Shown here one piece after another: positions 96-812 of a stretch of DNA of 46,023 bases. Positions within the stretch are counted from its first letter, which is position 1; each line of letters opens with the position of its first letter. A model generated the notes under the pieces. It ran no database searches. It was not told the origin of the DNA and saw only the letters and a program-made list of their open reading frames with translations. The position numbers and the translations under genes were made by a program. The stretch is from a virus. Location: positions 1 through 46,023 of IMG/VR virus record IMGVR_UViG_3300006921_000025; one strand, given 5' to 3'.

Positions 96-812
96 ATGGT
101 AGCGGCAAGTGGCAGTATATTAGTGGGTGTAGCCCTATATGGTAAACAAGCCTACAATAATTGGAAATCTAGAAGAGTAGGAATATATGGTGCATCTATG
201 GTGGGTAAAACCACTTTAGACAAATATATGACTACTCCGGGCGAAATGGAAGAAATACCCGAACACGAAAGAACTAAACATTTCAAATTAATAACTCGTT
301 ATATTTTACCTAAACCTACACGTAAAAGAGTGCGTTGGGAAGGAGAAAGAAGAGTTATTCATTCTGCTGATATAGGCGGAGAAGAAAGATTTTGGAATCT
401 TTGGATTGATGATATGGTTAATCGACAATGTGAATATGTTATATTTATGTTTGATGATAGAGCATTCAAAGGTGGAGATGAAGCACTACAACAAATAGGA
501 GGCTTTCGTTTTCTAGTAGATAATGTGATTGAAAGAAATTATAGATATAGAAATTGGAAAAGTTGGAGAAAGGGAAAGAAATATGTTCCTAAAATGATAC
601 TTCTAGTTGCTAATAAAGCCGATAGATACTTTGACAACAAAGCCGCACAGTTATGGAGAGAGGGTAGAATCGGTGAACATAAGATATTTGACCCTTTTAG
701 AGAAGACCTAATTAGATTACAAAAAGCAGGTATACCGACTCGTCGTTCTTTTATGGCGACACGTATAGGTTGGAATGTTGAAAATACATTATTAGAGATG
801 ATTGATTACTGA
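96..812 (+). CDS. Membrane-anchored Ras/Arf-like small GTPase
   Basis: 238 residues. A hydrophobic N-terminus (about residues 3-16, followed by Lys/Arg) looks like a membrane anchor or signal-anchor. The G domain follows. The P-loop GASMVGKT is at 32-39. The G3 motif is D92-I-G94-G95-E-E-R-F, closest in style to the DxGGQE of Arf-like proteins. The G4 motif is N173-K-A-D176. A weak G5-like FMATR lies near 219. Family knowledge makes it a GTP-binding molecular switch, and the anchor would place it on the cytoplasmic face of a membrane. A glutamate (E96) occupies the place of the catalytic Gln of Ras/Arf, so intrinsic hydrolysis may be altered. No clear Shine-Dalgarno precedes ATG 96; that start keeps the anchor. 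Its role in the virus is unknown; membrane remodelling, egress or interference with host signalling are guesses. Confidence 0.85.
   Translation: MVAASGSILVGVALYGKQAYNNWKSRRVGIYGASMVGKTTLDKYMTTPGEMEEIPEHERTKHFKLITRYILPKPTRKRVRWEGERRVIHSADIGGEERFWNLWIDDMVNRQCEYVIFMFDDRAFKGGDEALQQIGGFRFLVDNVIERNYRYRNWKSWRKGKKYVPKMILLVANKADRYFDNKAAQLWREGRIGEHKIFDPFREDLIRLQKAGIPTRRSFMATRIGWNVENTLLEMIDY

Follow-up and report, generated by a model that had tools for sequence, protein, structure and literature searches.

A putative Ras-superfamily GTPase with an Arf lean is a core gene of magrovirus-like tailed viruses

Small Ras-like GTPases organise eukaryotic membranes and also occur in Asgard archaea, and a core member is unusual for viruses of microbes. 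Tailed phages can carry lysis cassettes upstream of their terminase genes, as in the S-R-Rz order of lambda and the holin-TerS-Rz-TerL order of T7. The order Magrovirales, for its part, is described as having genomes of 90–110 kb with a family-B DNA polymerase (PolB), GroEL, modules encoded on opposite strands and kinship with the Druskaviridae (PMC12999244, PMC10768690). Here we describe a gene for a predicted small GTPase near the start of a 46-kb virus fragment (46,023 nucleotides, the whole stretch of DNA analysed, called the window hereafter), together with its relatives in other viral contigs (Table 1).

The gene translates as an uninterrupted reading frame from the earliest in-frame start available, only 6 nt behind the stop codon of the membrane protein gene TM_B. 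Its translation recovered the G1 (GASMVGKT), G3 and G4 (NKAD) motifs that had been claimed behind an N-terminal hydrophobic segment, as well as a G5-like MATRIGWNVE at residues 220–229 that was absent from the earlier note. When aligned with 49 diverse homologues, 53–100% identical to the window protein, G32, the GKTT run from G37, TPGEM from T47, T60, D92, G95, NKAD from N173 and MAT from M220 turned out to be invariant; the G1 pattern GxxxxGK[ST] occurs in 49/49, and the D92xxG95 of G3 and the NKAD of G4 are likewise retained throughout. Such motif conservation is far beyond chance. Comparison with the four nearest relatives tested gave dS values of 0.85–1.27 and dN values of 0.026–0.039, hence a dN/dS ratio of about 0.03–0.04, which implies strong purifying selection. 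The product is very probably a GTPase.

Table 1. Features of the GTPase gene and of its surroundings in the window (positions in nucleotides; res, residues of the GTPase).
Feature	Position	Strand	Remarks
TM_B 3' end, small single-span membrane protein	1..89	+	full length at L007:5702-5989; homologue in 147/147 loci
Putative Ras-superfamily GTPase gene, 238 aa	96..812	+	uninterrupted ORF on translation
N-terminal hydrophobic helix, res 3-23	102..164	+	invariant G6 and G11; aromatics at 15, 20 and 23
G1/P-loop GASMVGKT, res 32-39	189..212	+	residue conservation
TTPGEM, conserved family-specific loop, res 46-51	231..248	+	switch I region; T46 variable, T47-M51 invariant
T60, alternative G2 candidate	273-275	+	T in 49/49
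T75, candidate G2 residue	318..320	+	T in 40, S in 9 of 49; directly before strand beta2
G3 DIGGE, res 92-96	369..383	+	Gln/Glu/Asp/His at catalytic position across family
G4 NKAD, res 173-176	612..623	+	invariant
G5-like MAT, res 220-222, then IGWNVE	753..761	+	MAT invariant
MazE/AbrB-type domain ORF, 59 aa	855..1034	+	PF04014, 27.8 bits vs cut-off 24.7; 84/152 loci
Cys-rich protein, 322 aa	1040..2008	+	no family match; 123/152 loci
Gln-rich protein, 214 aa	2005..2649	+	152/152 loci
TM_C, 86 aa	2649..2909	+	two predicted membrane spans; 152/152 loci
HTH / CxxC protein, candidate small terminase	2946..3629	+	152/152 loci
Terminase large subunit (TerL)	8926..10416	+	prevalence marker
HK97-type major capsid protein	21223..22362	+	32-33% identical to Druskaviridae

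The residue at the catalytic position, by contrast with the other motif residues, varies among the 146 distinct homologues compared: 95 have Gln, 40 Glu, nine Asp and two His, and parsimony on a FastTree tree places Gln at the midpoint root with ~11 changes at this position. The Glu that follows DxGG in the window protein (Glu96) had been taken to suggest a slow or locked switch. This reading had to be abandoned, as Glu is a recurrent variant of the Gln that is both majority and ancestral, and the spread of residues and the number of changes indicate one of several tolerated states, with no sign of a locked switch. In Ras, the substitution Q61E makes intrinsic GTP hydrolysis faster, not slower. 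The same variability, together with a predicted switch I (residues 42–75) that is long and atypical, could also speak for a protein that binds nucleotides in a structural role only, its switch function having been lost. We regard this alternative as quite improbable, since the P-loop Lys and Thr, the G3 Asp and Gly, the G4 NKAD and the G5 are all invariant and Gln or Glu predominate at the catalytic position. The G2 threonine could be either T60 or T75, the latter proposed from its position ahead of the beta2-beta3 hairpin in models whose switch I has low confidence.

Relatives of the GTPase occur in at least 219 confirmed marine viral contigs of IMG/VR, and a second subclade, with about 55–60% identity, was reached via locus L165. 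To avoid circular ascertainment, relatives were also searched by their terminase (TerL), chosen for an unbiased estimate of prevalence. The GTPase was present in each of the 75 TerL loci that have 9.3 kb or more of upstream DNA, at 7.7–9.7 kb upstream of TerL. A search based on the major capsid protein, in which 30 long records were scanned, retrieved it in 20 records, all of which reach the expected site; the remaining 10 end short of this site, about 21–24 kb upstream of the capsid gene. The earlier note had associated a chance insertion with absence of the gene from related genomes, an absence that these counts (75/75 TerL loci and 20/20 informative capsid records) exclude. A chance reading frame or a recent insertion of a cellular gene, in favour of which the weak Pfam matches of the single sequence may be cited, is thus ruled out for practical purposes by the at least 219 related contigs, the synteny in all loci and the strong purifying selection. 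One record (G130, locus L568) carries the GTPase at 24365–25078 with an in-frame TGA, which is either an assembly error or a real nonsense codon.

Among INPHARED phages, neither the window DNA (first 25 kb) nor the GTPase protein was found, and a PHROG search with the GTPase yielded no significant family (best E=0.16), in agreement with the earlier suggestion that such a gene is not standard tailed-virus cargo. A PADLOC search with the GTPase gave no match either, which led us to discard an anti-phage defence GTPase. The cellular homologues consist of three matches in metagenome-assembled genomes (L163, L164 and L165), all on short magrovirus-like contigs that are most likely misbinned viral DNA; the genomes bear the labels Maricaulis, Asgard archaeon and Cytophagaceae.

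The tailed-virus nature of the window, with virion genes adjoining the GTPase, was borne out by the terminase, portal, head protease, major capsid and tape measure genes found downstream. Fifteen relatives of 85–118 kb encode both PolB and a Cpn60 chaperonin (15/15), which lie on the other strand from the GTPase and virion genes. These long relatives, as distinct from the fragmentary window, present the genome features of the Magrovirales (size, PolB, chaperonin and tailed-virus structural genes), and the GTPase-bearing viruses match magroviruses as judged by the published descriptions of the order. From this placement we infer Poseidoniales as hosts, so that these viruses probably infect abundant ocean archaea.

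Several other features of the window and its relatives deserve mention. A short amphipathic peptide with the consensus [GS]EPM[DEN]IAFQLLK recurs in several late proteins, either internally or at the N-terminus. In the window it is found in the products of 4030–5445 (around residue 139) and 24054–24473 (N-terminus), and in locus L007 in those of 1651–4533 (four copies), 9926–11347 and 628–891. Its strict form is present in 68 distinct ORFs from 58 loci, with up to four copies per protein, and a looser pattern has two occurrences in the window vs 0.015 expected from shuffling; the peptide could be a capsid-targeting or processing signal. Between TerL and the portal gene, the ORF at 10470–11627 contains a LAGLIDADG-like stretch (AAGFLDADGYITI) and is possibly a homing endonuclease; Pfam returned nothing for it at E<=0.01. 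A giant ORF of more than 4500 aa (32392–46023), located downstream of the tape measure gene, runs off the end of the window and begins with a segment that, judged by eye, resembles laminin G.

The kinship of the GTPase was examined with profiles, predicted structures and phylogeny. For the window protein alone, Pfam gave matches below cut-off to Roc (E=0.005) and MMR_HSR1 (E=0.07), which indicates a divergent family, and NCBIfam gave small_GTP alone (13.7 bits vs a cut-off of 42.5). Across the 49 viral members, Roc (PF08477) is the commonest Pfam match (26/49, best E=6e-4), Arf (PF00025) matches weakly in 10/49 (best E=0.02, short of the cut-off) and not in the window protein itself, and SRPRB (PF09439) has no match at E<=1. 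With family matches this weak, and those of the window protein below cut-off, a Pfam-based assignment to Arf, Ras or Roc was rejected. A sequence search of the PDB retrieved nothing significant, the best match being the GTP-binding protein 8oun (E 0.15–0.46). Two AlphaFold2 models (pLDDT 74.6 and 75.8, pTM 0.76 and 0.75) display a G domain behind an N-terminal helix, with the P-loop and switch I poorly modelled (block pLDDT 43–62). Searched against the PDB with Foldseek, they matched Rab, Rac, Rho and KRAS at E 1.7e-7 to 3e-7 with probability 1.0, and more than 880 chains at E<=0.001; TM-scores to target of 0.5–0.6 for these predicted models are consistent with the alpha/beta G-domain fold. 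Among viral structures, Foldseek matched Rab/Ras GTPases of giant viruses.

Misbinned contig aside, the family profile found few weak matches (best 3e-6), mostly of Arf type, in 99 genomes of the phylum of the Asgard MAG. Several of them bear the Arf-type DxGGQxxFWxLW, and Arf is the top-ranking Pfam family for each of the three tested. The cellular sequences nearest to the viral family are Asgard GTPases of the Arf family, which have this motif in common with it. The viral proteins themselves present this switch II feature as D-x-G/A-G-Q/E/D followed by W100 and W103, both invariant among the 49 homologues. By hhalign, the viral family aligned with the matched Asgard Arf-like group at probability 98.8 and score 111 over residues 24–236, a comparison biased towards that group because it was chosen with the same profile; Asgard Ras-like proteins reached 97.5 and 79, and Era-type GTPases 95.8 and 59. 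For a few other Asgard Arf sequences taken together, the score was only 61. In the IQ-TREE phylogeny, the viral GTPases group together (100/100) as a single clade whose branch measures 2.16 changes per column, on the Ras/Arf side and outside both the Ras/Rab (99/88) and the Era-type clade (99/97). The clade joins one Asgard GTPase (L444) at 92/82, its exact sister being unsure owing to unconverged bootstraps and the long branch. Sequences and predicted models together thus place the GTPase in the Ras superfamily, as a new family with an Arf lean and, given its very long branch, not as a proven Arf. Of the Arf/Ras-like GTPase announced by the earlier note, the Ras superfamily and the Arf lean stood; specific membership in Arf, MglA or SRPRB was not borne out.

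The gene resides in a cassette of constant order, TM_A–TM_B–GTPase–(MazE/AbrB)–Cys-rich–Gln-rich–TM_C–HTH–...–TerL. A look for the same neighbours in related contigs revealed it to be fixed, with TM_A upstream of TM_B in 124/124 loci, TM_B in 147/147, TM_C in 152/152 and TerL in the expected order in 62/62. Hydropathy predicts at least one membrane span in TM_A and in TM_B, two in TM_C and none in the GTPase. Family searches with the TM proteins gave nothing above cut-off, which leaves no grounds for ascribing a lysis function to them. An identification of the HTH protein as small terminase (TerS) via HCTV-5 was dropped when the weak match turned out to be an HTH-HNH endonuclease. Ahead of the G1 motif, the GTPase has the hydrophobic sequence MVAASGSILVGVALYGKQAYNNW, modelled by AlphaFold2 as a helix from residue 3/4 to 23. 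Its best 19-residue Kyte-Doolittle average is 1.17 vs the 1.6 usual for a transmembrane span, and the helix is not strongly amphipathic (muH 0.28 vs 0.25 elsewhere in the GTPase); the Gly2 used for myristoylation in Arf is not conserved among the 49 homologues. Of the membrane anchor proposed earlier, the hydrophobic N-terminal helix is borne out and conserved; a standard transmembrane span is not, hydropathy being too low and the helix too short.

The best explanation of these data is, in our opinion, a membrane-associated late GTPase switch, perhaps serving egress, to which we attribute a probability of about 0.4. The protein would be a switch of the Ras superfamily, nearest to the Arf side, that binds and hydrolyses GTP; its gene, core to the magrovirus-type tailed viruses of marine archaea, is presumably expressed late. 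It may act at the host cytoplasmic membrane, as suggested by the conservation of its hydrophobic N-terminal helix and by the three surrounding genes for membrane proteins. On GTP binding, this helix and the switch regions would move, and the movement might govern whether a complex of TM_A, TM_B and TM_C assembles or opens late in infection; the most plausible output would be egress or membrane remodelling. The earlier note had raised egress, membrane remodelling and superinfection control as possible roles, all three of which stay hypotheses. An exit module would, by analogy, be compatible with the lack of peptidoglycan in the presumed archaeal host, with the presence of small membrane proteins and with a location immediately ahead of the terminase region. 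Against the switch at the membrane count the helix, below transmembrane score and not strongly amphipathic, the low confidence of the P-loop and switch I, and the soluble proteins also encoded in the cassette, which could be a head-assembly module.

The GTPase might instead serve in virion assembly or packaging, as a chaperone or checkpoint that times head or portal assembly by GTP and whose helix docks proteins and not the membrane. This idea fits the position of the gene, which precedes those for the HTH protein, TerL, portal and capsid within the late virion operon in an order fixed in all loci, and it fits a helix with invariant Gly at positions 6 and 11 that is too short to span a membrane. 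Nevertheless, three flanking membrane-protein genes would be unusual in a pure head module, and halovirus HCTV-5 and vir519, tailed viruses without the GTPase although their capsid proteins are related, manage without it; we find this alternative rather unlikely. A GTPase directed at the host, which would mimic or titrate a host small GTPase or a polarity or motility switch, or alter the cell surface for superinfection exclusion, seems unlikely: the Ras-superfamily fold, the Arf-like DxGGQxxFWxLW in common with archaeal cellular GTPases and the Rab/Ras GTPases that giant eukaryotic viruses likewise encode agree with it, but without exception among the loci the gene is linked to virion and membrane genes, which speaks for a function together with their products, and host-interaction genes are usually patchy whereas this one is present in every informative record.

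Carried further, the membrane-associated switch suggests that a dedicated membrane machine under GTPase control (GTPase with TM_A, TM_B and TM_C) serves magroviruses for leaving or remodelling archaeal cells, and that this is the first Ras-like switch core to a prokaryotic tailed-virus order, a proposal that is tentative and on the doubtful side. If true, this machine would be a candidate answer to how tailed viruses exit wall-less archaea. For viral action at the membranes of archaea, egress included, the cassette offers a concrete and testable handle, and the family supplies research into how Ras/Arf GTPases arose with a new deep lineage.

With magroviruses (Magrovirales: Apasviridae, Aoguangviridae), the long relatives share their size (85–118 kb), PolB and Cpn60 (15/15) and capsid kinship with Druskaviridae. 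We found no mention of the GTPase for magrovirus families in the literature searched, an earlier mention in a gene table being possible, and a Ras-like GTPase core to a prokaryotic tailed-virus group appears to be new to PHROGs, Pfam and that literature. The likeness to the lambda and T7 lysis cassettes, small membrane proteins just upstream of terminase genes, is a positional analogy only; the viral cassette differs by its GTPase and by having no endolysin, spanin or holin family match. Roc domains (PF08477) come with a COR domain or LRRs that the viral GTPase lacks, and the window protein scores 17.6 bits vs a cut-off of 27 with a model that covers generic Ras-like G domains. Ras, Rab and Rho (PF00071), including giant-virus members, have the same predicted fold (Foldseek probability 1.0), and further likenesses are the ERF that follows the viral catalytic residue, as it does in Rab, and the NVE after G5. 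The viral GTPase nevertheless lacks their C-terminal prenylation cysteine motif, has DxGG in place of DTAG and is less similar to them by profile (hhalign score 79 vs 111 for the Asgard Arf-like group, itself chosen with that profile). From Arf and Arl, including Asgard Arf-like proteins (PF00025), it differs by a longer insert between G1 and beta2, which bears the invariant TPGEM, and by the missing Gly2 of Arf myristoylation, whereas the DxGGQxxFWxLW switch II, the NKxD motif and an N-terminal hydrophobic helix before the G domain are features that both have in common.
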